Notes under the pieces: model-generated | What the model saw: the letters and a program-made list of their open reading frames with translations, nothing else | The model's database searches: none | Told to the model about the DNA's origin: nothing | Part shown: positions 10,875 to 48,260 of the stretch, one piece after another | Layout: every line of letters starts with the position of its first letter | Position numbering within the stretch: the stretch's first letter is position 1 | DNA from: Sedimentisphaerales bacterium | GTDB lineage: Bacteria > Planctomycetota > Phycisphaerae > Sedimentisphaerales > Anaerobacaceae | Direction of reading: 5' to 3' | DNA: 55,872 nt | Assembly: GCA_028277585.1 (NCBI GenBank) | Contig: JANQFY010000087.1 | Location: 1-55,872, forward strand | Program-made: the position numbers and the translations under genes

Positions 10875-11053
10875 GGTCAGCTGTCCCCCTTCATCTCGAC
10901 ATCATCCAAGTAGTCATCGAGCGCCATGTTAGTCGCCCCACCAGCGCTTGGCAAATCCGTTTTTGGGGAAGGTTCTTGGCATTGTACCACCAGCCACGCC
11001 GCCACAGTCCCACCGAGGTGTCACGCAACGGGAGTCACGCCATTCGTCTCCCG

Positions 11054-11082
11054 TTGTTTCGCGAGGCCCAATATGCTACGAT
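11054..11082 (+). promoter_or_regulatory. sigma70-like promoter of the repeat-protein gene
   Basis: TTGTTT (11054-11059), a 17-base spacer and TACGAT (11077-11082). The start near 11089 leaves about 60 bases to ATG 11150. This fits the downstream start and argues against translation from an upstream in-frame ATG near 10976. Confidence 0.4.
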
Positions 11083-11149
11083 GACTTCCGGCCGGCAAGA
11101 TCAGGCGTTCTTCGATAGAAACGTTGCGTTCAGTCAGAAGGAGTGGTCG

Positions 11150-13705
11150 ATGCATCCACGATCGGTTCGCGTACCGTTGTCACCCTGTCTCGCCCTCATC
11201 CTCATCGCTCTGACACCGTTGCCTGCTCTGGCAGAAGAACCTCCCACGAGCTGCCAGGAAACAACCAGGCGCGTGCTGAAGCCGTTCCTGGATCGACTGG
11301 CGGCCGCGGAGAAGGCCGCCGAGCATTACGAGGAGCAGAACGCCGAGAAGATCGCCCTGATCAACGAACAGATCCGCCTGCGTCAGGAAGCCCGTAAGAT
11401 CTTCGACGACGCCCGGGCCAAGGAGAACGAGGCGTTCGGCGATCGCATCAAGTGGGGCAACGAAGCCATTGCCGAAGCTCGAGCACATGCCCAGAAACAG
11501 ATCGCCGAGAAGCGCAAGCTGGCAGCTCGGGAGCGTACGATAGGCCACCCGGATATCGCCAAGGCCCACACCGAAGCCGCCGCCAAGATCGCGGCCGACC
11601 TGGCCGCGGGAAAGACCAGTTGGTTTAAGAAAGAACTGGGCCTGCGTTACAGCATCAAGGGCTGGAGGAAGTACGTTTCCGATCAGACCCAGCAGCGCGC
11701 CAAACGCATGGCCGCCTACGGCGCCGGCGAGGTGTCGCAATTCCTCACCAAGCTCGGCTACCGCGACACCTGGAAAGGCGTCGTCGCCAGCACCAAGGAG
11801 AAGCAGGAGGAACTGGCCAAGGCCAAGGCCCGCAAGTACAGCCATTTCATGAAGGCAATCGGCCTGCGTCTGACGGGCAAGGAGATGGACGATTATCTCG
11901 CTCAACGCCAGGAAGAACTGGCCGACGCCCGGGCCCGCATCGCAGCCGGAACGTTCACCGTGTATGTCCCGGCGCTCGGGATGCGTCTGGATCGCAATGC
12001 CGTCCAGAAAATCGTCGGCGAAGCGAAAGACAAGTACCGAAAGACATCCAACGCCTGGGACGCCAAGACCTACAGCAACTACAATCCTCTATGTGGTTTT
12101 CGCCCGACCAATGGCGATATCGAGAAGACCATCGCCAAGAAGAAAAAGGAACTGGCGGACTTCCAGGCGGCCGGTGACGATGCCGAGGCGTATGCGGTCG
12201 GCATGCGGCGAACGGGTCGGCAGGTCCGCCAAGAGATCGCCGCGGCGCAAGCCCGTGGTAACAGCGACGCCGCCAAGAGGGGACACGAAATCCTGGCCGC
12301 GTGGAAGAAATCGTGCGCCAAGTGGATCGCTGAGAAACAGAAGGACATCCAACGATGGGAGAAGATCCTGGCCAAGCACAAGGAGATTCACAAAGAGGAT
12401 CTAGAGAAGCAGAAAGCCAACATCGATGGTCGCCTTCAGGATGCGCTGAACCAAACCCCCTGCGGCGGATCGGCCGGTGCGATCGATCCCGACAAAGCGA
12501 CGGTAGACGAGCACCACGACAAACTGGACGGGCTCAGCGAGTCTGACGCCGAGAAGAAACGTCGCCGCGACTGGTATGACGACAAGATCTACGTCGAACC
12601 CGACGGCACCGTGCACGGCGATCCCCGCGAGGCCTGGCTCAACGCGTTGCGCGATACGGGATTGACGCCCTCACAGCAGCAGTCGCTCGCCGAGCAACTG
12701 CTCAGCCTCCAGGGCATCATGAGTTCGAAGAACTTCGCCGACTGGCTCGTCGCTTTCAAGGACGCCAACGAGATGCGCAAAGCAACGGGCGTGATCGAAG
12801 AGTTCATCAAAGCCATGGAGGGGATCGACATCAACACGATGAAGAACGCCGACTTCTACAAGCGGCGTCGCGAGATCCGCAAGATGCTCCCGCTCGTCAG
12901 CGAGGCCCTGGAGAAGGGCATGCTCAGCCCGGGCCGGATCCAGCGCTACATCGACGCGCTCAAGAAGTCGGGCAGCGGCACGCGTCAGACGCGTGACCAG
13001 TTGAAGATGCTGCAGCGCCTGCTCGATACATCACAGGACGCCAAGAACATGTGGCGCAGCAGCAGCGCCCTGCGCAACATCGGCCGCACGCTGGCAACCG
13101 ACGCCGCCGGGGCCTATCGCAAGTTCGTCTCCGGCTCCTCAACACAGGTCGCCCAGCGCCTGGACGATGCCTTCGCCGGCATGAGCAAGCTCGACAAAGG
13201 GCTGCTCGTCCTGAGCGTCGCGGCCGCAACCGCCGAAGCCTATGACCGTATCGAGAAGGGAGAGGCCGCGTCGGAAGCAATCGCGCGCAGCAGTGTGAAC
13301 TTCGTCATCGATCTGGCTATCGCGGGCGTTCCGGTCACGGCGGCGGCCGAAATGGCTACTCAGATCCTGTTCACCTCCTATGCCTATGCCACCGGCGATG
13401 AGGGCGTCTCCGATGCGACCCTGAGCAACACGACCAAGTGGGCCGCCCAGGAGGCCTTGAACCAGGTCGCCGACGGCGCGGCCTACCTGGGAGAAGCCTC
13501 GATTGCACTGGAGCGGATGGTGTTCAATGAGCCCAATGTCCGCGCCATCCTGGGCAATGTCAGTCATCACCGGCTGCGCCAATCGCTCAGCCGGGTCGAG
13601 GACCAACTGGACGCCCTGCCCCCCGGACACGCCACCGAGGTCCGGCTGCTCCGCATGCGCGAGGCGTTCCGCATCCTGATCCGCGCCAAGCAGGAGCAAG
13701 GCTAG
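11150..13705 (+). CDS. secreted coiled-coil protein with a novel 35-39-residue repeat, function unknown
   Basis: 851 residues; I recognise no family. ATG 11150 has AGAAGGAG six bases upstream and opens directly into a signal peptide (about 1-28, ending ALAEE). Next comes a charged helical region (about 35-150), then four units built around an LG-[LYM]-R core at 163-166, 202-205, 237-240 and 276-279, with a fifth, weaker one at LCGFR. Each unit begins with a short aromatic/Ser strand (TSWFKKELGLR, VSQFLTKLGYR, YSHFMKAIGLR) and ends in a helix. A long coiled coil (about 300-420) and a helical domain (about 480-850) follow, including an Ala/Val-rich segment (about 700-760) that could be membrane-seeking. 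It stands alone with its own promoter. It could be a periplasmic or surface structural protein, or an effector. Confidence 0.75.
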   Translation: MHPRSVRVPLSPCLALILIALTPLPALAEEPPTSCQETTRRVLKPFLDRLAAAEKAAEHYEEQNAEKIALINEQIRLRQEARKIFDDARAKENEAFGDRIKWGNEAIAEARAHAQKQIAEKRKLAARERTIGHPDIAKAHTEAAAKIAADLAAGKTSWFKKELGLRYSIKGWRKYVSDQTQQRAKRMAAYGAGEVSQFLTKLGYRDTWKGVVASTKEKQEELAKAKARKYSHFMKAIGLRLTGKEMDDYLAQRQEELADARARIAAGTFTVYVPALGMRLDRNAVQKIVGEAKDKYRKTSNAWDAKTYSNYNPLCGFRPTNGDIEKTIAKKKKELADFQAAGDDAEAYAVGMRRTGRQVRQEIAAAQARGNSDAAKRGHEILAAWKKSCAKWIAEKQKDIQRWEKILAKHKEIHKEDLEKQKANIDGRLQDALNQTPCGGSAGAIDPDKATVDEHHDKLDGLSESDAEKKRRRDWYDDKIYVEPDGTVHGDPREAWLNALRDTGLTPSQQQSLAEQLLSLQGIMSSKNFADWLVAFKDANEMRKATGVIEEFIKAMEGIDINTMKNADFYKRRREIRKMLPLVSEALEKGMLSPGRIQRYIDALKKSGSGTRQTRDQLKMLQRLLDTSQDAKNMWRSSSALRNIGRTLATDAAGAYRKFVSGSSTQVAQRLDDAFAGMSKLDKGLLVLSVAAATAEAYDRIEKGEAASEAIARSSVNFVIDLAIAGVPVTAAAEMATQILFTSYAYATGDEGVSDATLSNTTKWAAQEALNQVADGAAYLGEASIALERMVFNEPNVRAILGNVSHHRLRQSLSRVEDQLDALPPGHATEVRLLRMREAFRILIRAKQEQG

Positions 13706-13984: not shown

Positions 13985-16444
13985 TTAGGTCGGTTTGCGG
14001 TTCTGCTGGCAGAACTGGCCCATCAGTTCCATCGCCTTGCCCGTCTTGTCGAGCGCGCCGTCCAGTTGGGCAAAGGCATCGACCAGTTCCAGCAGCCCTG
14101 GGTCGGGCTCCACGGAGCCGTACTTGTGGGCGACGTTGACAATGCCGGCGTCCAGGCCGTACTCCATCGCCTTGGCTACGTACGCACGACAGACGCCGAT
14201 CCGCCGACCGGGCAGGTCGCGAACGGAGTTGCTCACGCCCAGCGAACAATGCACGCCCTTCATCTCGGGATCATTCTTGATCTTAGCGATGGTCTCGAAC
14301 GTTCGGTAGGTATAGCCCGGCACGCCCGGCTCCATCGGCATATCGATCGCCAGAGGAAAGACCGTCGAATCGAAGAAGATCTGGTTGGCTTCGAAACCAT
14401 AGTGTCCGACCGCTTTGTCGAAGATCTGCTTGGCAAGGTCGAACAACTCATCGACCGAATGCGATCCCCCCGGGCCGGTCGCCTTGTCCTCGCTGACCAG
14501 CAAACCGATGACGGCGAAGTTATAGTTCTTCTTCCAGGGCAGGACGCGGTCCATGGTGTAGACCTTCACCGAGTTGATTAGCGGGGGTTTGACCGGCTCG
14601 GTCGTGTTGTACCACTCCTTCAGGCCCGCCTCCAGGACATTGTCATCGCTGCTATCGATGCAGATCGGGACCCCGTCACTCCACTGGCGAACGAGCTTCG
14701 TGTATGCAATCATCATATCGGCCGCGACCTGTGGGTCATCCTCCCCGAAGGCATCGAGATTGACGGCAATGTAGTCGGCGCCGTCGGCGGCCTGGGATTC
14801 GATCAGCGCCTTGATGTAGTCGAGCGGTTCGCTCGGCGTCGTGTAGGCGTCGGGACCCAAATCCTGAAGCTGCTTCATGACCCGGCCCGTCTTGGGGATG
14901 GAGGCGTGTACCGATTCGCCGATGGAGATGAGTGCATTGGTCATTGTATGATCCCTCCCGAACAGATAGTTGAGAATAGACGAAGTATGCTTCAGCGCGG
15001 GAACCCGAGCCGGGTTGATGATGGTGCGCAACCGATCGCGTCCCCCCTTCTCCGAGGCGGCCGCCTGATAGATCCGGTCTCCGATGCAGACCCGCTCCAG
15101 GTTGTTGCCGCAACGACCGTCCACAGTCGCGTCGCCGCACGGGGCGTTGTCCAGGCCCTTCTCGCAGCAGCCGAGCGTGCAGAGCCCGAAGTTCTCGGGC
15201 AGGAAGCAATCGCCACATTCCTCACAATCGAAGAGGAGGTACTTGAAGGCCTTTTCGTTGGCGTTGAAGACCTTGTAGACGAATCCCTTGCCCTTCTCGG
15301 CGCCCAGGAACTTCATCGTCCTCTTGAAAGCATGAAAACCGAAATGGTCGGCGTCGAGAACCGCGCGGTGCGAGAAGTCAAAGAACCGCTTGCCGAGTGT
15401 GGCGCCCGGGTTCGAGAGTGTCACCTGCGCGCCGTCGGAGTTGTACAGGTAGAACGCCTCCTTGGCAGGCCAGCACAGGTTCTCCTTGGAGGATTCCCAG
15501 TCATCGCCGATCTCGGCCGCTCGGTCCAGGATTCTGGTGAACATCGCGAAATCGTGCACGCCCCCGACATCCACGCCGGCCGCTCCGATCGCCTTGTACA
15601 TCGCCACCTGCTGGGCGGCCCGCTCGATGTGGTCGTCCAGGCTCTCGGCGTAGACCTTGGCCAGCAGCTCGTCGCTGACGAAACACCCGGGCAATTTGAT
15701 GTCGTGCATCAGGCGCGGCGCGGGCGTAATCGTGCTGAGCAAATACACGTTCCCGATCACCGGCACGTCCAGTTGCCGCGCCTTCAAGTAGGTGAACAGC
15801 TCGAGCGACTTGCGCCAGTCCCAGCCGACCTGCGTGATGAGGAACTCCGCGCCGCTGCGGATCTTCTTCTCCATCTTGTAATACTGCTGCATCTGCGCCG
15901 CTTCGGAGTACTTGAACGGAGAGACCGCCGCCCCCGTGATGAACTGATGCACGTCGGGCAGAGCGTCGGGGCTCGCTTTGAGATACGACTGTTGATTGAG
16001 TTGTCTGATCAAACGCAGCAACCCGACCGATTCGAGTTCGAACACCCCCTTGGCCGAAACCGGCTTATCCCCGGTCAGCGCCAACACGCTGGTGATGCCG
16101 GCCTTTTTGAATCCGGTCAAAGCACTGACGACCGCATCGGAGTTGGCGTCTTTGCAGGTAAGATGCGGCACGACATCGAGACCTTCGAGCAGATCCTTCG
16201 CGTTGAGGTAGCTGATCACGTCCGCCGGTTCGATGTTCGCGACACCGCCCGGATTCTGAGGCAACGCGATGGCGGCGAAGTCGAACCCCTCCGGCACGAC
16301 GGCCGAACCACTCTCAGAGGCTTTCTCGTGCGCTTCGAGGAACGCTTCAATCGGCCGGAAGCTGAACCCAGGACCGCCGGTCAACTCCGCAAGAACCACA
16401 AAACCAGATCGCTCCCTCAGCTTCTGCCCAAGACTCGTCTGCAT
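13985..16444 (-). CDS. fusion of methylenetetrahydrofolate reductase, MetV-like zinc domain and methyltetrahydrofolate methyltransferase
   Basis: 819 residues from ATG 16444 (GGAG nine bases upstream; an in-frame TTG at 16471 is less likely). Residues 1-310: MetF-type TIM barrel, with Glu20 in VVLAELTGG at the position of the catalytic Glu. Residues 400-460: MTHFR C-terminal (MetV-like) domain with nine Cys (407, 410, 413, 422, 426, 427, 436, 445, 453), able to bind zinc or an Fe-S cluster. Residues 501-780: pterin-binding domain of the AcsE/MtrH/MetH kind (YIAVNLDAFGEDDPQ, PICIDSSDDNVLEAGLK, INSVK, VHCSLGVSNSV). One chain could reduce methylene-THF and pass the methyl group to a corrinoid protein. 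No corrinoid protein is nearby. An internal RBS precedes Met501, exactly at the last junction. Confidence 0.88.
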   Translation of the reverse strand: MQTSLGQKLRERSGFVVLAELTGGPGFSFRPIEAFLEAHEKASESGSAVVPEGFDFAAIALPQNPGGVANIEPADVISYLNAKDLLEGLDVVPHLTCKDANSDAVVSALTGFKKAGITSVLALTGDKPVSAKGVFELESVGLLRLIRQLNQQSYLKASPDALPDVHQFITGAAVSPFKYSEAAQMQQYYKMEKKIRSGAEFLITQVGWDWRKSLELFTYLKARQLDVPVIGNVYLLSTITPAPRLMHDIKLPGCFVSDELLAKVYAESLDDHIERAAQQVAMYKAIGAAGVDVGGVHDFAMFTRILDRAAEIGDDWESSKENLCWPAKEAFYLYNSDGAQVTLSNPGATLGKRFFDFSHRAVLDADHFGFHAFKRTMKFLGAEKGKGFVYKVFNANEKAFKYLLFDCEECGDCFLPENFGLCTLGCCEKGLDNAPCGDATVDGRCGNNLERVCIGDRIYQAAASEKGGRDRLRTIINPARVPALKHTSSILNYLFGRDHTMTNALISIGESVHASIPKTGRVMKQLQDLGPDAYTTPSEPLDYIKALIESQAADGADYIAVNLDAFGEDDPQVAADMMIAYTKLVRQWSDGVPICIDSSDDNVLEAGLKEWYNTTEPVKPPLINSVKVYTMDRVLPWKKNYNFAVIGLLVSEDKATGPGGSHSVDELFDLAKQIFDKAVGHYGFEANQIFFDSTVFPLAIDMPMEPGVPGYTYRTFETIAKIKNDPEMKGVHCSLGVSNSVRDLPGRRIGVCRAYVAKAMEYGLDAGIVNVAHKYGSVEPDPGLLELVDAFAQLDGALDKTGKAMELMGQFCQQNRKPT

Positions 16445-16465
16445 TGTCGCCGTCTCCAAGGAGAA

Positions 16466-16550
16466 GATCAAATATCAGGAACCACACTCTGCGGAATCGC
16501 CGCGATGCGGCGAGGACTTGCTCAATCCTAACATTTTGCGTTTTGCCTTT
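16466..16550 (+). repeat. dispersed palindromic repeat, copy A
   Basis: Core hairpin TCGCCGC-gat-GCGGCGA inside GGAATCGCCGC...GCGGCGAGGACTT, flanked by GATCAAATATCA on the left and TTTTGCGTTTTGCCTTT on the right. It matches copies at 24744-24834 (same orientation) and 41011-41095 (inverted). This copy lies in the leader of the MTHFR fusion gene and is the most diverged of the three. Confidence 0.7.
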
Positions 16551-38041: not shown

Positions 38042-39772
38042 ATGACAAGCCCCATGAAGACACTTGTATACAAGATGGTCGAACAGGGGCTGATCGACGA
38101 CGCGACGGCCCGGGAGGTGAACGGCTTGCTCACAACGGGCGAGCCTCCGACCCGGGCCTTCGCGGCTTGTGGATTGGCCGACGAAGCTCTCTTGCGATTC
38201 TGGAGCGAGCAATTCGACTGGCCCTACGTGGAACTGGAAGAGGGTTCGTTTGGTAAGGCCTTCCTCGCCAAGTTCCCCGCCCGGATTCTGCTCGAAAAGC
38301 ACGTGATTCCCGTTCAGAACGGGGACGATGATGTCCTAATCGTTACGAGCAATCCGTTCGACACGTCGGCCATCGACGAACTGCGTCTGGCGACCGGGCG
38401 TGATCTGCGCCTGGGACTGGCGCCATTGGCGGACATCGACCGGTGCATCAAACAGCACCTGGGCGTCGGAGCCGACACGGTTCAGTCGATGATCACCGAG
38501 GCCGGTGAGAACGGTCTGCAGGTCATCGATACAGACGCCGACGAGGACATGGACCTGACCGACGCGGCCGAGGGCGCCTCGATCATTCGCTTCGTCAACC
38601 AGATCCTCACCGAAGCCATCGAATTGCGGGCAACGGACGTCCACATCGAACCGTTCGAGAACACGTTGCGCGTCCGTTATCGCATCGACGGCGTGCTCCA
38701 GGAAACCTCTATCGCCAGCGAGGTCAAGCACTTCCAGGCCGCGATCGTCTCGCGCCTGAAGATCCTCAGCAAGCTGGATATCGCCGAGAAACGCATCCCC
38801 CAGGACGGTCGCATCAAGATCCTCATCGCCGACCGGGAGATCGACGTCCGTGTCTCAGTCATTCCTATGCTGTATGGCGAAGCGGTCGTCTTGCGTCTGC
38901 TCGACCGATCGTCGGTCCTGCTCGGGCTCGACAAGCTGGGCATGTCCGATCGTGATCTGAATGTCACCAAGACGATCCTGGAGCGGCCGCACGGCATTAT
39001 CCTCGTCACCGGACCGACCGGATCAGGCAAGACAACCTCGCTGTACGCCGGGCTCTCGCAGATCAATGACGTTCAACGCAAGATCATCACCATTGAGGAC
39101 CCCATCGAGTATCAGCTTCATGGCATCAATCAGATTCAGGTCTCCCGCAAAGCGGGCCTGACCTTCGCCAGTGGATTGCGGTCCATCCTGCGTCACGACC
39201 CCGATGTCATCCTCGTTGGTGAAATCCGCGACGTCGAGACCGCCGAGATCGCCATCCAGGCGTCCCTGACCGGCCACCTGGTCTTCTCCACCCTGCACAC
39301 AAACGATGCACCCACGGCGCTGACGCGTCTGGTGGACATGGGCATCGAGCCGTATCTGGTCGCCTCCTCGCTGGAAGCGGTCATCGCGCAGCGACTCGTG
39401 CGCGTAATCTGCTCCGAATGCAAGGAGGAGCTTGCCGGGCCCGAACTTGAACGGCTCAAGCAGCGGTTCGGCGACGCGGTGCCCGAGAAGCTCTATCGAG
39501 GGCAAGGCTGCCGGCGTTGCCAAGGGACCGGCTACCGAGGTCGGATGGGCATCTTCGAGATGATGGTCGTCACCGACGAGATTCGTACCCTGATCCTCAA
39601 GAACGCGTCCCCGCTCGATCTGCGTCAGGCGTCGGCGAAACAGGGAATGACCAGCCTCCGCGACGACGGATTCCGCCATTTGCAGCAGGGGCGCACAACG
39701 GTGGAGGAGATCCTCAGAGTCACGAAAGACGACACCTTCAGCGAGCACAATCTTGGAGGTCTCACGACGTAG
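38042..39772 (+). CDS. gspE: type II secretion ATPase GspE
   Basis: 576 residues. An N-terminal T2SSE_N domain (about 10-150), then the hexameric ATPase: Walker A GPTGSGKTT (from 324), IEDPIEYQLHGINQIQV, Walker B region (DPDVILVGEIRD) and His box (TGHLVFSTLHTND). Cys457, Cys460, Cys490 and Cys493 form the zinc motif of secretion ATPases. It drives pseudopilus assembly on the cytoplasmic face. Full length. It overlaps nothing but starts two bases after the preceding stop. Confidence 0.95.
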   Translation: MTSPMKTLVYKMVEQGLIDDATAREVNGLLTTGEPPTRAFAACGLADEALLRFWSEQFDWPYVELEEGSFGKAFLAKFPARILLEKHVIPVQNGDDDVLIVTSNPFDTSAIDELRLATGRDLRLGLAPLADIDRCIKQHLGVGADTVQSMITEAGENGLQVIDTDADEDMDLTDAAEGASIIRFVNQILTEAIELRATDVHIEPFENTLRVRYRIDGVLQETSIASEVKHFQAAIVSRLKILSKLDIAEKRIPQDGRIKILIADREIDVRVSVIPMLYGEAVVLRLLDRSSVLLGLDKLGMSDRDLNVTKTILERPHGIILVTGPTGSGKTTSLYAGLSQINDVQRKIITIEDPIEYQLHGINQIQVSRKAGLTFASGLRSILRHDPDVILVGEIRDVETAEIAIQASLTGHLVFSTLHTNDAPTALTRLVDMGIEPYLVASSLEAVIAQRLVRVICSECKEELAGPELERLKQRFGDAVPEKLYRGQGCRRCQGTGYRGRMGIFEMMVVTDEIRTLILKNASPLDLRQASAKQGMTSLRDDGFRHLQQGRTTVEEILRVTKDDTFSEHNLGGLTT

Positions 39773-39787
39773 TGAGAACGGCCCAAC

Positions 39788-40999
39788 ATGGCGACATTCA
39801 CCTACAAAGCGATCGACGCCAACGGACAGGAAGTCTCCGACAAGCTCGTAGCCGCCGACCGGGCGACGGCCATCGAGCAGCTCTTCGACCTCAGCCTCAA
39901 TCCCGTATCGGTCGAGAGAACGGAGGAGGCGCAACCTCAAGGGCTCTTCGCTCGCTTCGGCGGCATCTCAAAACGCGAAATCGACAGCTTCACGCGTCAG
40001 TTGGCCAACCTCCTGGCGGCCGGCGTGCCCATGAGCCGGGCCCTGAGCATTCTCAGCCGGGAGGCGTCCCGCGTGGCGTCCAAGAAACTCTGGGCCGTGA
40101 TCCACGATCAGGTCGCCGGCGGCATGTCCCTGGCCGACTCCCTGAGCCTGCACCCGAAAGCGTTCTCTCCGATCTACGTAGCGATGGTGCGAGCCGGCGA
40201 AACCGGCGGCTTCCTCGACATCGTCCTCGAACAGATCGCCACCTTCCGGGCCCGCGAGGCGGATCTGAAGGGCCGCGTCAAAGCGGCGCTGGTCTATCCG
40301 ATCATCCTCGCCGTCCTGGCGGCCGGCATTATGGTTTTTCTACTGACGTTCTTCATCCCGCGTTTCTCGCAGATGTTCGCCGAGTTCGGCGGCTCGCTGC
40401 CCGCGCTGACGCGTTACATCGTCGTCGCCAGCGACATTCTTGTGAAATACTGGTTCGTGCTGGTGATCGGGATCGCCCTGATCGTCTTCGCCATCCAACG
40501 CATGCTGACCAGCGACGAAGGACGACGGTCCATGGAAGGACTGATGCTGCGCACCCCCCTGTTCGGGACGGGCATGGCGCGGTTCGCCCTGGTGCGCTTC
40601 TGTCGCATGCTGGGCACGCTCGTCGGCGCCGGTGTCCCGCTGATCGCCTCGCTGCGGGTGGCCAAGGAAGCCATCGGCAACCAGGTATTGGCCGACACCG
40701 TCAGCAGCGCCACCGAGAGCGTCCAGAAAGGCAACCCGCTGGCCCGCAGCCTGGAGGGCTGTCGCTTGCTATTCCCGGCGTCGGTGATCGAGATGGTCTC
40801 TGTCGCGGAAGAGAGCGGGCGGCTGGACCAGGAACTGGTGCGATTGGCCGGCGCGTATGAAGAGGAATTGGATCGCCATCTGAAGATGATGGTGACATTG
40901 ATCGAGCCGGCGTTGCTGTTTCTGATGGCGGTTCTGGTCGGGACGGTGGTGATCGGCATGCTCCTGCCCATCTTCAACCTGCAGGAATTGATCCGCTAG
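39788..40999 (+). CDS. gspF: type II secretion inner-membrane protein GspF
   Basis: 403 residues with the paired T2SSF domains (about 70-190 and 270-395: ISKREIDSFTRQLANLLAAGVP, FALVRFCRMLGTLVGAGVP, each followed by SR/L-R-x-A) and three transmembrane helices. The N-terminal FTYKAIDANGQEV is typical of GspF/PilC. It forms the inner-membrane platform with GspE and GspL. RBS is weak, and the gap to gspE is 15 bases. The following gap of 127 bases carries a palindromic repeat. Confidence 0.95.
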   Translation: MATFTYKAIDANGQEVSDKLVAADRATAIEQLFDLSLNPVSVERTEEAQPQGLFARFGGISKREIDSFTRQLANLLAAGVPMSRALSILSREASRVASKKLWAVIHDQVAGGMSLADSLSLHPKAFSPIYVAMVRAGETGGFLDIVLEQIATFRAREADLKGRVKAALVYPIILAVLAAGIMVFLLTFFIPRFSQMFAEFGGSLPALTRYIVVASDILVKYWFVLVIGIALIVFAIQRMLTSDEGRRSMEGLMLRTPLFGTGMARFALVRFCRMLGTLVGAGVPLIASLRVAKEAIGNQVLADTVSSATESVQKGNPLARSLEGCRLLFPASVIEMVSVAEESGRLDQELVRLAGAYEEELDRHLKMMVTLIEPALLFLMAVLVGTVVIGMLLPIFNLQELIR

Positions 41000-41010
41000 G
41001 CCACGCATGA

Positions 41011-41095
41011 AGATCAAAGTGCAAAACGCAAGATGCAGAATTGAGGAGGTCATCGCCGCGACGCGGCGATTCCGCAGTTTTGATGTTTGATTTCC
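41011..41095 (-). repeat. dispersed palindromic repeat, copy C, inside the secretion operon
   Basis: Core ATCGCCGC-gac-GCGGCGAT (41052-41070), with the flanks AGATCAAAGTGCAAAACGCA and TTTTGATGTTTGATTT in reverse order relative to copies at 16466 and 24744. It separates gspF from gspG and could attenuate or process the operon mRNA. Confidence 0.75.
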
Positions 41096-41126
41096 AATCT
41101 TTACATTTCACAAGTTGAGGACTGAC

Positions 41127-41591
41127 ATGAAATCGGCAAGCCAACAAGACGAAAGACAGATGCAACACCGGTCGAACCGGGCGGGCTTTACCCTGATCGA
41201 ACTGATGCTCGTGCTGGTCATCCTGGCGACTTTGGCGGCCATCGTCTTGCCCAAGTTCACCGGACGCTCCCAGCAGGCGAAGATCACGTCGGCCAAGACA
41301 CAGATCTCCCAACTCGAGGTGGCGCTGGACGCCTTCGAGATCGACATGGGTCGCTATCCCACCACCACGGAAGGGCTGCGAGCCCTGGTCGTCAAGCCGA
41401 CGTCCGATTCGGACGGATGGCAACAGCCGTATCTCAAACGCGAGGTGCCGCAAGATCCGTGGGGCAATGACTACGTCTACCGCTACCCGGGCCAGTACAA
41501 CGAGAACGGCTACGATCTGTACTCCGTCGGCCCCGATCACAAACTGGGCGGCGACGACGACATCAAGAATTGGTCGGACAAGACAAGATAA
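41127..41591 (+). CDS. gspG: major pseudopilin GspG
   Basis: 154 residues from ATG 41127 (GAGGA upstream). Leader ends RSNRAG, followed by FTLIELMLVLVILATLAAIV. The C-terminal globular part has the GspG fold features: YPTTTEGLRAL, DPWGNDYVYRYPGQ and GPDHKLGGDDDIKNW with the calcium-binding Asp cluster. It is the main subunit of the secretion pseudopilus, processed by a prepilin peptidase not found in this window. Confidence 0.95.
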   Translation: MKSASQQDERQMQHRSNRAGFTLIELMLVLVILATLAAIVLPKFTGRSQQAKITSAKTQISQLEVALDAFEIDMGRYPTTTEGLRALVVKPTSDSDGWQQPYLKREVPQDPWGNDYVYRYPGQYNENGYDLYSVGPDHKLGGDDDIKNWSDKTR

Positions 41592-41637
41592 TCGTCCCCT
41601 CATGGCAAGGGTGGAGCTGTTCCATACGGGCAATCGC

Positions 41638-42171
41638 ATGAACACAGTGAAGAGAAAAAGCGGAACGGACCAGGGCTTCACGCTCCTGGAACTGATCCTG
41701 GTGATGGTCATCCTTTCGACCGTCCTGGCGATGGCGGCGCCGTCTCTGCGCGGGTTCTTCACCTCCCGCAAGACCCACGACACCGCCGCCCAGATCCTGG
41801 CGCTGACGCAGTTCGCCCGGTCTCAGGCCATCAGCGAAGGAGTCGTCTATCGCCTGAACTTCGACACGCAGGACCGCACTTACTGGCTGACCGCACGACA
41901 GGCCGGCATCTTCGAGGAGTTGGAGACCGAATTCGGCCGAACCTTCGAACTGCCCAAGGACATTGTCATGGAGTTGGAGGACCTGGACCAGGAGGACACC
42001 GATATCTATCTGAAGTTCACCCCTCAGGGCACCGTCACCGCCGGCACGGTCCGGCTGATCGATCGGGCGGGGCTGGCCCTGGAGATCGCCAGTCCCAGTG
42101 TCACGGAATCGTTTTCCATCGTCGAAGGCGAGCGGAGCAATGACTACTACGCTTCCAAATACGACAATTAG
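41638..42171 (+). CDS. gspH: minor pseudopilin GspH
   Basis: 177 residues from ATG 41638; 41602 is an in-frame alternative, and neither has a good RBS. The shorter choice gives a 13-residue leader (MNTVKRKSGTDQG) before FTLLELILVMVILSTVLAMA. The globular beta domain is about 50-175 with FARSQAISEGVVYRLNFD, the GspH/FimT signature. It belongs to the pseudopilus tip complex. Its stop overlaps the gspI start by 32 bases. Confidence 0.88.
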   Translation: MNTVKRKSGTDQGFTLLELILVMVILSTVLAMAAPSLRGFFTSRKTHDTAAQILALTQFARSQAISEGVVYRLNFDTQDRTYWLTARQAGIFEELETEFGRTFELPKDIVMELEDLDQEDTDIYLKFTPQGTVTAGTVRLIDRAGLALEIASPSVTESFSIVEGERSNDYYASKYDN

Positions 42172-42544
42172 CAGGAGCCGCCGGCGCCGCGGCTTCACGT
42201 TCGCCGAACTGCTGGCGACCGTGGTCTTGATCGCCATCATCATGCCCGTGGCGATGCGAACGGTCGCTCTGTGCACGCGTTTGGGAGGTCTGTCGCGTAA
42301 GGAGACGGAAGCCGCTTCGCTGGCCCGCGCCAAACTGACGGAACTGATCACCTCGGAGGACTGGCAGAGCGGCGGTCAACGGGGCGACTTCGGCTCGGAC
42401 TGGCCGGGGTACCAGTGGTCGACCGACGTCTCGAGTTGGTCGGATTCGCTGGTCAGCGAGGTCCGCCTGACGGTGAAATGGCAATCGCAGGGGCTCGACC
42501 GGCAGATCACCCTGGCGACGCTGGCCTATGCGGAGGAGGAGTGA
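42140..42544 (+). CDS. gspI: minor pseudopilin GspI
   Basis: 134 residues. ATG 42140 lies inside the end of gspH, so translation is coupled. A leader rich in Arg (SRSRRRRG) precedes FTFAELLATVVLIAIIMPVA; the family usually has FTLLEV, so Phe-Ala here is a small divergence. The C-terminal part with ARAKLTELITSEDW fits GspI tip proteins. Confidence 0.85.
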   Translation: MTTTLPNTTISRSRRRRGFTFAELLATVVLIAIIMPVAMRTVALCTRLGGLSRKETEAASLARAKLTELITSEDWQSGGQRGDFGSDWPGYQWSTDVSSWSDSLVSEVRLTVKWQSQGLDRQITLATLAYAEEE

Positions 42545-42545
42545 G

Positions 42546-43280
42546 ATGAATCCCGCCGCAAGGTCATCTCGAGGTTTCACACTGCTCGAACTGCTGGTGG
42601 CGATGAGCCTGATGGTCGTCGTAGCGGCCTGCCTTTACTCAGCCCTCTACACGGGCTTCAAGGCGCGGCGCAGCGCCCTGGCGGCCGTCGAACCGACCGC
42701 CCAGGCGATCAACGCGATCGAACTGCTCAAGCAGGATCTGGTCGGTGTCCTACCCTTGGGCGGCGGGCTGGCGGAGACCTTTCTGGGGACCAGCAGCCGC
42801 AACAGCAAAGGCGACGACAGCGATACCGTCGAGTTCTATACGACACATGTCTACGGCGATGAGGATGAGTTGGTCGGAGGGTTGGGCAAGATCGAACTGG
42901 CACTGGAGGAGGACGACGACGAGGATCGAGAGAACTATCGACTCGTCCGTCGAATCACGAGAAACCTGCTGTCGCCTCGCGATATCGACCCCGAGGAGCA
43001 GGTGCTCTGTCGTGATGTCATGTCGCTGAACTTCCGGTACTACGACGGAGAGAGTTGGCAGGAGGAATGGGATTCCAGTGCGGACGCCAACAGTCTGCCG
43101 CTGGCGATGGAGGTCGACATCGAGGTCGCTTACAGCAATGGCGGCGCTGCAACGACACAAGACCCAAGGCGGCGTCTCATCCAGAGCTTCGCCCTGCCCT
43201 GCGGAGGAGAGGCCGCCTCGACAAGTGAAACAGAAACGACGACAACGACGGGCCAGGCAGCCGGGGGGATCGGCGGATGA
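42546..43280 (+). CDS. gspJ: minor pseudopilin GspJ
   Basis: 244 residues from ATG 42546 (GAGGAGGAG upstream; an in-frame ATG at 42528 overlaps gspI). Leader MNPAARSSRG precedes FTLLELLVAMSLMVVVAACL. GspJ features include INAIELLKQDLVGVLPLGG and MEVDIEVAYSNGGAA. The tail is Thr/Gly-rich (TTTTTGQAAGGIGG). It overlaps gspK by four bases. Confidence 0.88.
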   Translation: MNPAARSSRGFTLLELLVAMSLMVVVAACLYSALYTGFKARRSALAAVEPTAQAINAIELLKQDLVGVLPLGGGLAETFLGTSSRNSKGDDSDTVEFYTTHVYGDEDELVGGLGKIELALEEDDDEDRENYRLVRRITRNLLSPRDIDPEEQVLCRDVMSLNFRYYDGESWQEEWDSSADANSLPLAMEVDIEVAYSNGGAATTQDPRRRLIQSFALPCGGEAASTSETETTTTTGQAAGGIGG

Positions 43281-44647
43281 AACGGCTGACTCGAAATGCT
43301 GGAGGAAGCGCACGCCAACGCCAGGGCACTGTCCTGATCGTCACGATCTGGGTCGTCCTGGTTCTGGCCGGCCTGGCGCTGGTCTTCGCGCGGTCGATGC
43401 GTGTGGCCGCCCTGGTTTCAGCCAACCACGTCGCCACCTTGGAAACTGAATGCATCGCCGCTGGCGCCGCCCAGTACATCCGGGCCCGCCTGACATCGGG
43501 CGCCGAAGAAGAAGCCGACGAAGCCGATATCGAAGACGCCTACAAGGGAATGCAGGTCGGCGAAGGCTACTTCTGGGTCCTGCACTCGAACCTGGAGAAC
43601 GACGACGCTTACGACTATGGATTGACCGACGAAGCGAGCAAGATCAACCTGAACTCGGCCTCGCTCGAGATGCTGCAGAACCTGCCCGGCATGACCGCCG
43701 AGCTGGCCGCGTCCATTATCGACTGGCGCGACGAGGACAGCGAGGTATCGACCAGCGGCGCCGAAAGCGAGTATTACCTGCTGCAATCGGAAGCATACAA
43801 CTGCAAGAACGCGCCGCTGGAGACCGTCGATGAGATTCTGCTAATCAAGGGCGCCTCGGAGGAGTTACTCTACGGCGAGGACACCAATCTCAACGGCATC
43901 CTGGACGACCACGAAAACGACGGCGACCTCAGCCAGCCCGACGACAACCAGAACGGTTCGCTGGACACGGGCTTCTACGACTATGTCACGGTCTACAGCG
44001 TCGAGGCTAATACCGACAGCGAGGGCAACGAACGTATCAATATCAACGACGCCGGCTCGCGCAGCACTCTGCAGACGACGCTGCAAGAAAACTTCGATGA
44101 GGAGCGGGCCCTGGAGATCATGACGCTGGTCCCGACCAACCCGCGCTACGACAACATTCTGGATTTCCACTTCCAGGCCGGCCTGAGCGCGGAAGAGTTC
44201 GGCAAGATCGCCGATCGCCTGACCACCAGCGATGAAGACACGCTGCCCGGCCTGGTCAACGTCAACACCGCCTCGAAAGAGGTCCTGATGTGCCTGCCCG
44301 GATTGGAGGAGAGTGACGCTGACGCGCTGCTGTCCTATCGCGGCACAACCAATGCGGAACTGACCTCGATCGCCTGGGTCGTCAACGTCCTCGACGCGGC
44401 CAAGGCGGTCGGGATCGGCAGCTATATCACGGTGCGATCGTCGCAGTATTCGGGCGACATCGTCTGCCTCTCGGGCAACGGACGCGCCTACAAACGCTAC
44501 AAAGCGGTCTTCGACATGCAGACCGGATCGGCACGAATCGTGTACTGGAAGTCGCTAACTTCTTTCGGATGGCCCCTGGACGAGGAGATTGTCTCGACGT
44601 TGCGGGAAGGCAAGCCTCTGACGGAATCCATCCTGGGTATGAATTGA
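43277..44647 (+). CDS. gspK: pseudopilin GspK (helix-hairpin-helix type)
   Basis: 456 residues. Start codon overlaps the gspJ stop (ATGA). The N-terminal helix is GTVLIVTIWVVLVLAGLALV; the usual prepilin Gly-Phe site is replaced by Gly-Thr, a known feature of GspK. Two helix-hairpin-helix domains (KINLNSASLEMLQNLPGMT near 125 and VNVNTASKEVLMCLPGLEES near 330) flank an acidic Asp/Asn-rich insert (LNGILDDHENDGDLSQPDDN) that may bind calcium. It caps the pseudopilus tip with GspI and GspJ. Confidence 0.9.
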   Translation: MKRLTRNAGGSARQRQGTVLIVTIWVVLVLAGLALVFARSMRVAALVSANHVATLETECIAAGAAQYIRARLTSGAEEEADEADIEDAYKGMQVGEGYFWVLHSNLENDDAYDYGLTDEASKINLNSASLEMLQNLPGMTAELAASIIDWRDEDSEVSTSGAESEYYLLQSEAYNCKNAPLETVDEILLIKGASEELLYGEDTNLNGILDDHENDGDLSQPDDNQNGSLDTGFYDYVTVYSVEANTDSEGNERININDAGSRSTLQTTLQENFDEERALEIMTLVPTNPRYDNILDFHFQAGLSAEEFGKIADRLTTSDEDTLPGLVNVNTASKEVLMCLPGLEESDADALLSYRGTTNAELTSIAWVVNVLDAAKAVGIGSYITVRSSQYSGDIVCLSGNGRAYKRYKAVFDMQTGSARIVYWKSLTSFGWPLDEEIVSTLREGKPLTESILGMN

Positions 44648-44660
44648 TTGGACAAGCACT

Positions 44661-46085
44661 ATGTTGGGCAATCGGACGGTATTGGGATTAGCCATTGACG
44701 AATTGGGCGTCGGTGTCGCCGAAGTCGGCGCCCGGGTGGGCCGATCGCAGGTTCGCCGGGCGGGCCGTTGGGACTTCGCCGAACCATTGAGCGACGCCAA
44801 CGCACAAGAATTGGGCGGGCAGTTCAAGCTGTTCCTGCGCTCGAACCATTTCGCGTCGAAACAGGCGATTGTCGGGATTCCGACGAAGTGGATCATCGCC
44901 CGCGAGATCGTCGCCCCGCCGGCGGTCGCCAACGCGCTGGCGGGTCTGTTGACCATCCAGGCTGAGCGGGCGTTCTCTCTGAACGCCGGTGAGTTGGTCC
45001 TGGATTATTGCGGCGCCCCTAGCGATTCGGAGCGCACCACGATCACGCTATTGGCGACACGCCGACAACTGGTCGACCAGATCCGAGAATTTGCCACCGC
45101 GGCAGGGCTGCAGATCCAGGTCATGACGGTTTCGGCTCTGGCGCTCGACGAAGCGTCCGGCCCCACGGGTGAAGGGCGAAGCTACGGGCTCTATAGCCGC
45201 CCCGGCTATTGCGAGTTCTGGAGCCGATCGGAGAATCGCCCGGAAACGATCAGCCATATCCCGACGGCGGGAGTCAACGGCGCCCCGGACGAGAAGGTCA
45301 AGCAATTGACAGCTACTCTGCAACGGCTGATGCTGTTGCTTCCCCAGCAGAACCAGTCGCCGCCGTACCGCGTCACGTTATACGACGCCTGTGGTCTGCC
45401 GGCCGGCGCGGTTGATCGGCTCAACGAGCAGTTGGCGCCTCAGATCCAGGTCGACGACGGGCAGATCCGAATGTCGATGATGGGACTGGACACGGTGGAT
45501 GACACGGAGCGTCGCGAAGCAATGACCGCCGCGGCGGTCGCCATCACAGGAACCGGCACGACGCCGCCGACGGTGGATTTCCTGAATCCGCGCATTGGGC
45601 GCAAAGAGATCTCCTCGCGCAAGCGTCTGACCGGCTGGGTCGCCTTCGTCGCGGTGGCGTGTATGGTCGCGGTTGGCGCCGTCGCCGCCGACTGGCAGAT
45701 GACACGCTCCGATATCGCAACCTACACCAAGCAGTTGGAGTCGATGAGCGAGGACCTGGCCGACGCGCGGTTGGTCGTCGAGCGGATGTCGTACGCTCGC
45801 GGCTGGACGAGCCAGAAACCTGAGTTTCTCGAATGCATCAGACACCTGACACTCGCCTTCCCCGAGACGCCCAGCGTTTGGGCGACCAGCCTGGCGCTGA
45901 CCGAGAACGCCGAAGGCTCGCTGGTGGGACGCGCGGTCGATGACACGAGCGTGATCGAGGTCCAGGACAGCATCAAGCAGAACGAGGTCTTCTCTGACGT
46001 GCAGATGATCCACATCCGCGACGTTGGGAGGAATTCGACCGAGAAAGAGTTTGCCGTGAAGTTCAAATTCCAAGGCGTGAGATAG
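44661..46085 (+). CDS. gspL: GspL/PilM-PilN-like inner-membrane platform protein
   Basis: 474 residues. An actin-like cytoplasmic domain (about 1-310: LGLAIDELGVGVAEVGARVG) is followed by a membrane helix (about 327-345) and a periplasmic PilN-like ferredoxin-fold part with coiled coil (about 350-474: MSEDLADARLVVERM). This is a single-chain merger of PilM and PilN, as in GspL. Starts 13 bases after gspK, whose product it follows in the usual order. GspE would bind its N-terminal domain. Confidence 0.85.
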   Translation: MLGNRTVLGLAIDELGVGVAEVGARVGRSQVRRAGRWDFAEPLSDANAQELGGQFKLFLRSNHFASKQAIVGIPTKWIIAREIVAPPAVANALAGLLTIQAERAFSLNAGELVLDYCGAPSDSERTTITLLATRRQLVDQIREFATAAGLQIQVMTVSALALDEASGPTGEGRSYGLYSRPGYCEFWSRSENRPETISHIPTAGVNGAPDEKVKQLTATLQRLMLLLPQQNQSPPYRVTLYDACGLPAGAVDRLNEQLAPQIQVDDGQIRMSMMGLDTVDDTERREAMTAAAVAITGTGTTPPTVDFLNPRIGRKEISSRKRLTGWVAFVAVACMVAVGAVAADWQMTRSDIATYTKQLESMSEDLADARLVVERMSYARGWTSQKPEFLECIRHLTLAFPETPSVWATSLALTENAEGSLVGRAVDDTSVIEVQDSIKQNEVFSDVQMIHIRDVGRNSTEKEFAVKFKFQGVR

Positions 46086-46087
46086 AT

Positions 46088-46654
46088 ATGGTTTTGTCGA
46101 AACGAGAACGCATCATCCTGATAGTCGCCGCCCTGGTTGTCGGCGCGCTGATCGTGGACAAGCTCATCTTCGGGCCGGTCAAGACCCGCTTGGATGACCA
46201 GAAGGCGCGCCGTCAGCAACTGTTGGCGGAATTGAACGAAGCGCAGTCTCTGTTCGAGCGACAAAGACTCCTGGCGCCGCGCTACAGGATGATGCTCTCC
46301 GACGGCTTCCGCACCGACACAGAAGCGGAGAGCCGCATCCTCAGGGCGCTGCGTGAGTGGTCGTCCGAGGCGATGCTGACGCTCAGTTCGGTCAAGCCCG
46401 AGCGAGTCGCCAGCGACCAGGGGCTCAAGGAAATGACGTTTGTCATCGCCGGCAAAGGGACGCTTCGCTCCGTGGCGCCGTTCCTGTGGCGCATTGAGAC
46501 GGCGGCCCTGCCAGTCAAGGTCAAGAGCATGCAGCTCGGTTCGGCCAGCGAGTCGGGCGACAGCATGTCGCTCCAATTGCGTCTCTCGGCCCTCTACCTG
46601 GATGACAAAGAAGAACAACCCCAAGCGACACAGTCCGAGGTCAGCGATGAATAA
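46088..46654 (+). CDS. gspM: GspM/PilO-like platform protein
   Basis: 188 residues: short cytoplasmic start, one transmembrane helix (about 9-27: IILIVAALVVGALIVDKLIF), coiled coil (about 35-70) and a small periplasmic ferredoxin-like domain (EMTFVIAGKGTLRSVAPFLW). It pairs with GspL in the inner-membrane platform. The stop overlaps the next gene by eight bases. Confidence 0.82.
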   Translation: MVLSKRERIILIVAALVVGALIVDKLIFGPVKTRLDDQKARRQQLLAELNEAQSLFERQRLLAPRYRMMLSDGFRTDTEAESRILRALREWSSEAMLTLSSVKPERVASDQGLKEMTFVIAGKGTLRSVAPFLWRIETAALPVKVKSMQLGSASESGDSMSLQLRLSALYLDDKEEQPQATQSEVSDE

Positions 46655-47234
46655 GAACTGCAATAGGATCGTAATAGGGATCCTGATGACGGCCGTATTG
46701 GGATCGGTCCTGACCCTGAGCCCAACCGCCGGGCTGGGTCAGACCACCGTCGAACAGCAGAGTCCGTGGACGCGCTACGAGGTCATTCTCGAACGCAACA
46801 TGTTCTCGCGACAACGGGGTTTCGCCCGACAACGTCGCGACGAGCCAGGCCAAGTAGCGGCCGTCCCCAATCCCGAATCCTATCTGCTGCTCAAGGGCGT
46901 TGTTCAGGAGAACGGCCAGTTCATCGCCTTCCTGGAAGATACCCGCAGCAATAGCGTGCTGCGTCTGCAAACGGGCGCCCAGGTGGCGCGAGGCGTGATC
47001 AAGTCACTGACCCTGGATTCGATCGAGTACGCGTTCGGCGAGCGGACCATCACCGTCCGAATCGGTCAGGACCTCGAAGGCGGCTTCGGCGCCGTGACCA
47101 TGACCGAATTGATGGAGTATTCAGACAGCCCGACAGGCGCCCTGCAAGACGCGACAACCGAAGCCCCCACCGGCGAAGAGGCGGACATCCTCAAGCAACT
47201 CATGGAACGCCGCAAGCAGGAGCTCGGGGGTTGA
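46647..47234 (+). CDS. GspC/PilP-like periplasmic linker protein
   Basis: 195 residues from ATG 46647 (GAGG six bases upstream). A signal anchor (about 8-30) is followed by LERNMFSRQR and a beta domain (about 60-145: YLLLKGVVQENGQFIAFLED) that fits the HR domain of GspC or the PilP/PulC core. There is no PDZ domain, so it is more PilP-like. Its role would be to connect the inner platform to the secretin N-domains encoded next. Confidence 0.72.
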   Translation: MNKNCNRIVIGILMTAVLGSVLTLSPTAGLGQTTVEQQSPWTRYEVILERNMFSRQRGFARQRRDEPGQVAAVPNPESYLLLKGVVQENGQFIAFLEDTRSNSVLRLQTGAQVARGVIKSLTLDSIEYAFGERTITVRIGQDLEGGFGAVTMTELMEYSDSPTGALQDATTEAPTGEEADILKQLMERRKQELGG

Positions 47235-47288
47235 ACGAACCGTGGGACATTTGCCAAGTCATAATCGAATGCGTAGGAGACCATAATC

Positions 47289-48206
47289 ATGCGAACGTAC
47301 CGAACGATCATCCTGACCGGGATACTGGCGACCGCGAGCCTGCTGGCGCCGGGGCATAGCGCCGCTCAGCAGCCGAACGAGTCAACTCCTCCCGAAGAAG
47401 CCCAAGCTGTCACCACACCGGCCCCCAAACCAGCCGTCTCACCTGCTTCAGCCGCCCAGCCGGTTGAGGTGGTCAAGACCAACGGGGACGTCATGGTGAA
47501 GCTGAACTTCCAGGATACGCCGCTGCAGGCCGTGCTGGAATACCTGTCGGAAACGGCGGGCCTGACGGTGATATCCAACGAACCGCTGATCGACGGCCGC
47601 ATGACGGTGATCAGCCGGCAACCGATCGCGCTGAAAGAGGCGGTCTCCTTGATCAATTCCATGCTGAAGGAGAAGGGCCTGACCACCGTCCTGACAGGCA
47701 AGGTCCTCAAGGTCGTCACGCTCGAGGCGGCCAAGAAGGAGAACCTCCCGGTCTATACCGGGCGCGATCCGCAAGCGGTTCTCCCCAGCGACGACGTCGT
47801 CACCTATGTCATCCCCGTACGCTATGTGACCGCCGATGCGCTGAAGGAGAATCTCACGGTGCTGATCCCCGAGCACGCCAGTCTCGAAGCCAACGAGGAC
47901 GGTAACGCCCTGATTATCACCGACACCATGGCCAACATCCAGCGGCTCATGAAGATCGTCGCCGCCCTGGACACGCATATGGCGTCGGTCTCGGAGATCC
48001 GGGTCTTTCGCCTGGTCAACGCGGACGCCGCCAGCGCCGCGACGATGATCAACACCATGTTCGAACAGAGCAATCAGAGCAACGGACGCAGCAGTCGCGG
48101 CAGCGGCCGTGGGGGCGACCGCGGCGGACCTGGAGGATTCAATCCCATGCGGATGATGATGGAGCGAATGGGCCGGGGTGGATTCGGCGGACGCGGTGGG
48201 CGTTAG
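47289..48206 (+). CDS. secretin N0/N1-domain protein (split GspD, front half)
   Basis: 305 residues with a signal peptide (about 1-26). After a Pro/Ala linker come a secretin/TonB short N-terminal domain (about 68-145: VKLNFQDTPLQAVLEYLSET, LKEAVSLINSMLKEKGL) and one N1-type domain (about 165-255: TYVIPVRYVTADALKENLTV, NALIITDTMANIQRLMKIV). It then ends in a Gly/Arg/Met-rich tail (RGGPGGFNPMRMMMERMGRG) with no secretin core. It is not a frameshift product: the next gene has its own RBS, ATG and signal peptide. It should act as a ring below the real secretin. Confidence 0.85.
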   Translation: MRTYRTIILTGILATASLLAPGHSAAQQPNESTPPEEAQAVTTPAPKPAVSPASAAQPVEVVKTNGDVMVKLNFQDTPLQAVLEYLSETAGLTVISNEPLIDGRMTVISRQPIALKEAVSLINSMLKEKGLTTVLTGKVLKVVTLEAAKKENLPVYTGRDPQAVLPSDDVVTYVIPVRYVTADALKENLTVLIPEHASLEANEDGNALIITDTMANIQRLMKIVAALDTHMASVSEIRVFRLVNADAASAATMINTMFEQSNQSNGRSSRGSGRGGDRGGPGGFNPMRMMMERMGRGGFGGRGGR

Positions 48207-48260
48207 CGGACAGACAACACAGGAATAGAGGCGCGATTCGACGCGAAGGAGATAGCAGCA

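Follow-up and report, generated by a model that had tools for sequence, protein, structure and literature searches.

A MetF-MetV-methyltransferase fusion gene of Sedimentisphaerales with a putative internal start for a free methyltransferase

The window analysed here, a stretch of 55,872 nucleotides (contig JANQFY010000087.1) from a Sedimentisphaerales bacterium, contains on its minus strand a gene joining a MetF-type MTHFR, a MetV-like part and a pterin-binding methyltransferase (MT), and we put at roughly 0.7 the probability that this one gene encodes two proteins. The full-length fusion would feed a split, B12-dependent methionine synthase, and a free MT would be made from Met501; the internal start would have been acquired after the fusion, and some relatives would have kept the MT alone. 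This reading is built on the architecture of the gene, its conserved active-site positions, the codon bias at an internal Shine-Dalgarno (SD) sequence, the fission debris found in two relatives and the co-occurrence of partner genes; from these we infer that the second product is expressed, in which direction methyl groups flow, that a corrinoid protein is the partner and in what order the events took place. The source genome (GCA_028277585.1) is a 7.2-Mb draft in 532 contigs and is 80% complete.

Results

Architecture of the fusion gene

Positions 13985-16444 of the minus strand form one frame of 819 codons, running from the ATG at 16444 to the TAA at 13985 without an internal stop (Table 1). 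An in-frame TTG at 16471 offers an alternative upstream start; the GGAG at 16457-16454 favours the ATG. In the 819-aa chain Pfam places MTHFR first, DUF5981 second and Pterin_bind third (residues 546-770, E 1.4e-9) and finds no homocysteine or B12 domain, so that the pterin module is separate from these. We take DUF5981, whose Pfam name is MTHFR C-terminal, to be MetV. The preliminary description of this DNA had proposed a three-part one-carbon enzyme in a single frame, and the open frame and the three Pfam domains bear this out; the stop codon between domains that would speak against it is absent from the fused matches in related genomes.

The presence of PF02219 together with a cysteine-rich PF12225 bearing eight invariant Cys fits a MetVF-type MTHFR as the reductase part, in which D126 and Q205 of the MTHFR part are retained in most homologue rows of the alignment. 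The nine cysteines first counted in the MetV part are indeed present in the window gene, of which eight are invariant across the 75 distinct homologues and the ninth, Cys C426, occurs in the window row only. Acetogen MetVF-type MTHFR is described, in the available part of the report, as MetF paired with a cysteine-rich MetV in two subunits (PMC8760232), whereas here the two form one chain in the order F-V, with the MT added.

An AlphaFold2 model of the fusion, computed from an alignment of 46 rows, has a mean pLDDT of 89.4 and a pTM of 0.89. In a Foldseek search one part of the model matches the MetH folate module 5voo with a TM (target) of 0.82 and another part the MTHFR 1v93 with a TM (target) of 0.75. 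The C-terminal domain shares with MetH both this fold and the four THF-binding positions; unlike MetH, the fusion has no homocysteine, B12 or reactivation domains and carries MTHFR and MetV instead. The four positions presumably correspond to Asp75, Asn96, Asp160 and Asn199 of AcsE. All four (D597, N624, D692, N739) are intact in the window MT by alignment, their loss having been named at the outset as an argument against the three-part enzyme, and by Pfam, alignment and fold the domain combines a Pterin_bind fold with the THF-binding D, N, D, N of a methyl-THF:corrinoid methyltransferase.

Of the 75 distinct homologues, 12 have a fused MT in which one to three of these positions are lost (the incomplete sequences L056 and L087 were not scored as losses), and the domain stays recognisable even so, a caution for annotation. 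Among these rows are L074 and L075, which lie beside CdhD and AcsE-like genes and have lost three positions each, and L111, beside a free and intact MT. The loss rows (L111/L089, which are the same gene, L074, L075, L117 and others) fall mostly in one divergent clade. MT domains of this kind perhaps have a structural or docking role.

Table 1. Features of the fusion gene and its methyltransferase junction, in window coordinates
Feature	Position	Strand	Description and basis
Fusion gene	13985..16444	-	819 aa: MetF-type MTHFR + MetV-like DUF5981 + pterin-binding (methyl-THF:corrinoid) methyltransferase (MT); frame, Pfam, homologues
SD of full-length start	16454..16457	-	GGAG; dG -6.4 to anti-SD
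MTHFR (MetF) domain	15611..16183	-	residues 88-278; Pfam PF02219, E 7.7e-20, above cut-off
MetV-like DUF5981 domain	15011..15271	-	residues 392-478; Pfam PF12225, E 1.4e-12, above cut-off
Conserved junction	14945..14992	-	residues 485-500, KHTSSILNYLFGRDHT; G-R-D codons form the SD; alignment of 77 fused ORFs
Internal SD-like sequence	14953..14959	-	GGGAGGG; dG -10.2 to anti-SD; synonymous-site bias
Putative internal start codon ATG (Met501)	14942..14944	-	sequence; homologues with a start at the same place
Predicted second product, free 319-aa MT	13985..14944	-	THF-binding D597, N624, D692, N739 intact; 5voo fold match

Distribution of the fusion

Within its order the fusion architecture is ordinary. 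In a survey of 61 genomes, the own genome and 60 relatives, the fusion is present in 40 (the own included), a free MT only in 15 and neither in 6, which answers the question, raised with the first reading of the sequence, whether other planctomycetes share it; five of the 40 fusion genomes also carry a separate MT. MetF and MT lie in one frame in 73 of 76 loci drawn from genome contigs. The nearest named loci belong to Planctomycetota, Phycisphaerae and Sedimentisphaerales MAGs, and fused loci from outside the order come from Aminicenantes, Sumerlaeota, Omnitrophota, Acidobacteria and Kiritimatiellales records. Across the phylum, a sample of 294 genomes (at least 90% complete, the own excepted) gave 15 matches at E 1e-30, ten of them over the MT and all ten in this order, the other five being distant and confined to the MetF-MetV part. 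These five, from the distant planctomycetes G115, G140, G160, G170 and G261, are frames of 560-632 aa and are perhaps a two-domain forerunner of the fusion. The occurrence of the fusion in 40 of 61 genomes, together with a codon choice at the SD that departs from each gene's own usage (below), places the observation beyond chance.

No MetF-MetV-MT fusion was found among the titles and openings of abstracts listed, a search whose coverage lies mostly outside subscription journals. The best 10 of 1,430 matches of a literature search on Sedimentisphaerales were all on human genetics or MTHFR in general and do not mention the order.

Partner genes and metabolic role

Among the 55 genomes with an MT, a corrinoid protein is found at E 1e-60 or better in 49, a PF02574 gene in 52 and a RamA-like reactivase in 51; in 44, both MetE and a full MetH activation domain are missing. 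Over all 61 genomes, the corrinoid protein query, itself found via L098, has matches at E 1e-10 in 56 (MetH and fragment matches included); PF02574 is present in 58, in G040 solely inside MetH, the RamA-like reactivase (PF14574) in 56, the own included, and MetE in 11. A full MetH activation domain occurs only in the own genome (G000) and in G040, with short partial matches in eight others, and G040 encodes a 1249-aa MetH and has neither a fused or free MT nor a RamA-like match. Of the 10 MT genomes in the phylum sample, one has the MetH activation domain, as against 210 of the 284 others.

Two loci place such genes side by side. At L098 a corrinoid protein gene is accompanied by FTHFS, by a gene that we take from its sequence to be FolD-like, by a fusion homologue of which the contig end leaves the first 270 aa and, nearby, by a homocysteine methyltransferase; at L112 a free MT adjoins a homocysteine methyltransferase-MTHFR gene. 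None of the 20 loci fetched around corrinoid genes has the fusion beside it, and among the 25 of 152 window ORFs that were scanned, the fusion included, no corrinoid or other methyltransferase family was found. PF02574 proteins can act on other substrates.

Separate homocysteine, pterin-binding and corrinoid proteins make up the split methionine synthase of Phaeobacter inhibens, where a RamA-like reactivase completes the set (PMC5764234), and MtgBCDE of Ruegeria pomeroyi, where a metF paralogue lies downstream of mtgD (PMC12478193), as far as the available parts of both reports describe them. The partner set found here, compared with theirs by description rather than by sequence, is alike, and its co-occurrence together with the L098 and L112 loci fits the Phaeobacter synthase and the MtgBCDE hub. 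The present system would differ from both in having its pterin module fused to MetF and MetV and in its internal start.

Probably, then, the three-part enzyme generates a methyl group and transfers it to a vitamin B12 protein, and its likely role is to provide a split B12 methionine synthase with both MTHFR and folate module. The MetF-MetV reductase part of the full-length protein would produce 5-methyl-THF, and the C-terminal MT would transfer the methyl group onto a separate corrinoid protein of about 210 aa, from which a separate homocysteine methyltransferase would take it to form methionine, with a RamA-like ATPase repairing the corrinoid. Such an enzyme would be a split B12-dependent methionine synthase with its folate module fused to its own methyl-THF supply, and it may explain methionine synthesis in bacteria that mostly have neither full MetH nor MetE.

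The flow could also run in the catabolic direction, the MT moving corrinoid-bound methyl groups from demethylases to THF and MetF-MetV oxidising them, a reading that we consider unlikely yet worth keeping in view. MTTB-family genes occur in 22 of the 61 genomes, in G019 two MttB-type genes adjoin the corrinoid gene, and oxidation of methyl-THF is what the available part of the R. pomeroyi report proposes for metF2, downstream of mtgD (PMC12478193). However, 39 of the 61 genomes have no match to MTTB, the one demethylase family covered, and the near-universal PF02574 and RamA-like genes, set beside the rarity of the full MetH activation domain, speak against it. The two roles are compatible, as one corrinoid hub could serve both directions. 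In three genomes (L144, L145, L147) the corrinoid gene is close to URO-D-family genes and PocR-type regulators, neighbours that hint at other methyl donors. A protein of about 560 aa beside the corrinoid gene was considered as a methyltransferase and rejected as sigma-factor-like.

MetE, on contig C305, and a MetH split over two frames are both present in the own genome, where the corrinoid gene appears as a fragment cut off by a contig end. This MetH (G000:C426, L119) consists of overlapping frames for a homocysteine part of 312 aa and a pterin, B12 and activation part of 909 aa, perhaps through a frameshift; the C426 stretch, at 58% GC where the window has 61%, may be foreign DNA or may have been binned in error. 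Separate metV-like and metF genes lie on another contig (G000:C363, L118) with genes that, from their sequence, we take to resemble Hdr, so the own genome, which has no CdhC match, may have a second MetVF system.

Codon bias at the internal start

GGGAGGG (14959-14953) lies eight bases before the ATG of Met501 (14944-14942), exactly as the preliminary description had it, and its placement of Met501 at the MT boundary agrees with the AlphaFold2 model, in which the first MT strand is predicted to begin at residue 506. A 16S tail with CCTCC was found by exact match in 31 of the 61 genomes, the own one (G000:C12:36-53) among them. The junction reads mostly LF[GAS][KR]DHT in the 77 fused ORFs, and residue 501 is Met in 39 of these. 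For the codon test two rows were removed as duplicates, L116 of the L066 gene and L089 of the L111 gene; of the remaining 75 distinct homologues 41 have a start codon at position 501 (ATG, or GTG once and TTG twice) and 34 do not. In L067, G057 and G060 an ATG stands one codon earlier, and L067 was scored as having no start in the codon test, G057 and G060 as having one in the genome count. All the start-codon rows that cover the THF site (40 of 41) keep all four THF-binding positions.

Since the SD-like bases code for conserved residues, the SD could be a by-product of a conserved G-[KR]-D at the domain junction, with Met501 an ordinary linker residue and no second protein; hence we looked for codon bias beyond the protein sequence. 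Fusions that have no start codon show the same conservation of the junction residues, codons chosen at random for these residues already average a dG of -2.9, and a strong SD (dG -3.7 or lower) is present in 17 of the 34 rows without a start, as against 37 of the 41 with one, two of the 41 having no SD. When amino acids were held fixed and codons were drawn from each gene's own usage in 400 simulations, the 41 start-codon rows showed an SD dG of -4.58 kcal/mol where -2.91 was expected (z -6.5, reached in 0 of 400 simulations), whereas the same test on the 34 rows without a start codon revealed no SD bias (z 0.17).

The bias is visible at single residues. With the other columns of the same alignment, which share the same tree, as a control for kinship, the start rows use AGR for the junction Arg in 14 of 14 cases (rank 1 of 52 Arg columns), AAG for the junction Lys in 22 of 27 (rank 3 of 92 Lys columns) and GGR for the junction Gly in 22 of 29 (rank 2 of 76 Gly columns), and in the rows without a start the corresponding ranks are 13 of 60, 50 of 71 and 40 of 85, no bias. 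Elsewhere Arg before Asp is encoded by AGR in 24 of 87 cases and Lys before Asp by AAG in 66 of 134, so the dipeptide context leaves the junction bias unexplained. Ranked by z in a scan of 811 columns of the start rows, the windows that cover the junction SD come 1-4 and 6. Column 501 is the one at rank 6 and stands 44th of 811 by dG alone; in rows without a start codon its rank by z is 377 of 802. A z of -5.9 and one of -5.7 occur in two other start-rich columns, whose SDs are weak (dG -1.15). An independent-pairs comparison of start codon and strong SD yielded four pairs on starred branches, in two to three of which the SD tracks the start, too few to link the two, and the openness of the mRNA at the junction is not significant (z 1.35).

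These results suggest that SD and start codon are under selection beyond the protein sequence. The by-product reading is improbable: codon choice favours the SD in start-codon rows only, the non-Met residues at 501 include those GTG and TTG codons, and the free MTs of L100 and L101 have an ATG at the 501 position. A live second start giving a free MT, one of two possibilities raised at the outset, is thus supported by a bias confined to genes with the start codon and by the ATG at the same place in two relatives, and ribosomes starting at Met501 would produce a free MT able to serve the corrinoid protein alone.

Order of events

The other possibility raised was that SD and ATG are a relic of a separate MT gene fused to metF-metV. 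A free MT without a fusion does exist in 15 of the 61 genomes, and in the MT tree, 30 of whose 90 inner branches are open, a 74-row clade (98/99) has the free MT L109 as its earliest branch. However, the fusions that branch off outermost lack a junction start and 15 of the 16 free MTs lie among the fusions of that clade, with the root placed on distant AcsE-like outgroup rows, and L100 retains fusion debris upstream of its free MT. On these grounds the relic is highly improbable and the internal start looks to have been acquired after the fusion; given the position of L109, the open branches and the distant root, this order is likely rather than proven.

The debris points to the opposite step. 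In L100 (genome G008) the free MT is preceded by fusion residues 2-37, a stop, and residues 471-499 out of frame, so that the full-length start is unable to feed the intact MT; the MT frame retains two possible starts, an ATG at the place of residue 501 and, ten codons before it, a TTG. In L101 (G028) stops are followed by the final dozen codons of the linker, and the choice is again between ATG and TTG. Some relatives would thus have dropped MetF-MetV later and retained the MT.

A separate MT gene accompanies the fusion in 4 of 10 genomes whose fusion has no start and in 1 of 30 whose fusion has one (p 0.010, post hoc). The contrast falls to p 0.11 when two genomes whose fused MT lost THF residues are set aside, and with G057 and G060 recounted as having no start it becomes 4 of 12 versus 1 of 28 (p 0.022).

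Relation to the Wood-Ljungdahl pathway

The pathway context suggested by acetogens, in which the MT would act as AcsE and methylate the corrinoid iron-sulfur protein, has given way mainly to a split methionine synthase. The best NCBIfam match of the MT is the AcsE-related NF005719 (PRK07535, E 1.7e-25), its best PDB sequence matches are 2yci and 2yck, and the fusions L074 and L075 lie in operons with CdhD and FTHFS. Yet the curated AcsE cut-offs are missed by far (89.7 of 259 bits for NF005719, 47.6 of 370 bits for NF040758), and AcsE is absent among the best 50 Foldseek matches listed for the fusion model. With CdhC (PF03598) matched in 18 of the 61 genomes and not in the own, 80% complete, with a separate AcsE-like protein in L074 and L075, where the fused MT lost three THF positions, and with CdhC in family f1 accompanying the free-only state, this reading is the least probable of all and was dropped for the window copy.

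In f1, CdhC is found in 10 of 10 free-only genomes and 4 of 22 fused ones (p 1.6e-5, a value from which relatedness was not removed). Outside f1 it occurs in 0 of 5 free-only genomes, and over all 61 in 10 of 15 free-only and 5 of 40 fused. At least 8 of the 10 free-only f1 genomes have separate metF and metV among the matches listed, so the fused MetF-MetV may be redundant there.

Discussion

We consider it an even bet that a metabolic fusion here evolved a live internal start which then became its exit route: where MetF and MetV also exist separately next to Wood-Ljungdahl genes, deletion would have removed the front half and left the MT to be made from the internal start, so that fusion, dual coding and fission would all be seen in one family. 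This suggests a route by which fused genes might split again with their last part expressed throughout. The junction also lets comparative sequence argue for an internal in-frame start with a built-in control, since the same residues occur with and without a start codon and the bias only with it.

Cas11 is produced from internal in-frame starts in the cas8 and cas10 genes, according to the available part of the report (PMC11899642), and is likewise a case of one gene giving two proteins, with a separate C-terminal product from an internal start. The present case concerns a metabolic enzyme, not a CRISPR subunit, is predicted from sequence, and comes with fission debris in two relatives.

Elsewhere on the plus strand of the window, a type II secretion cluster extends over 38042-50354 with T2SSE, T2SSF, T2SSK, a weak PilM match and a secretin. 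At 10976-13705, also on the plus strand, is a 909-aa protein without a Pfam match, relatives of which occur on the loci of three close relatives (L024, L061 and L070).
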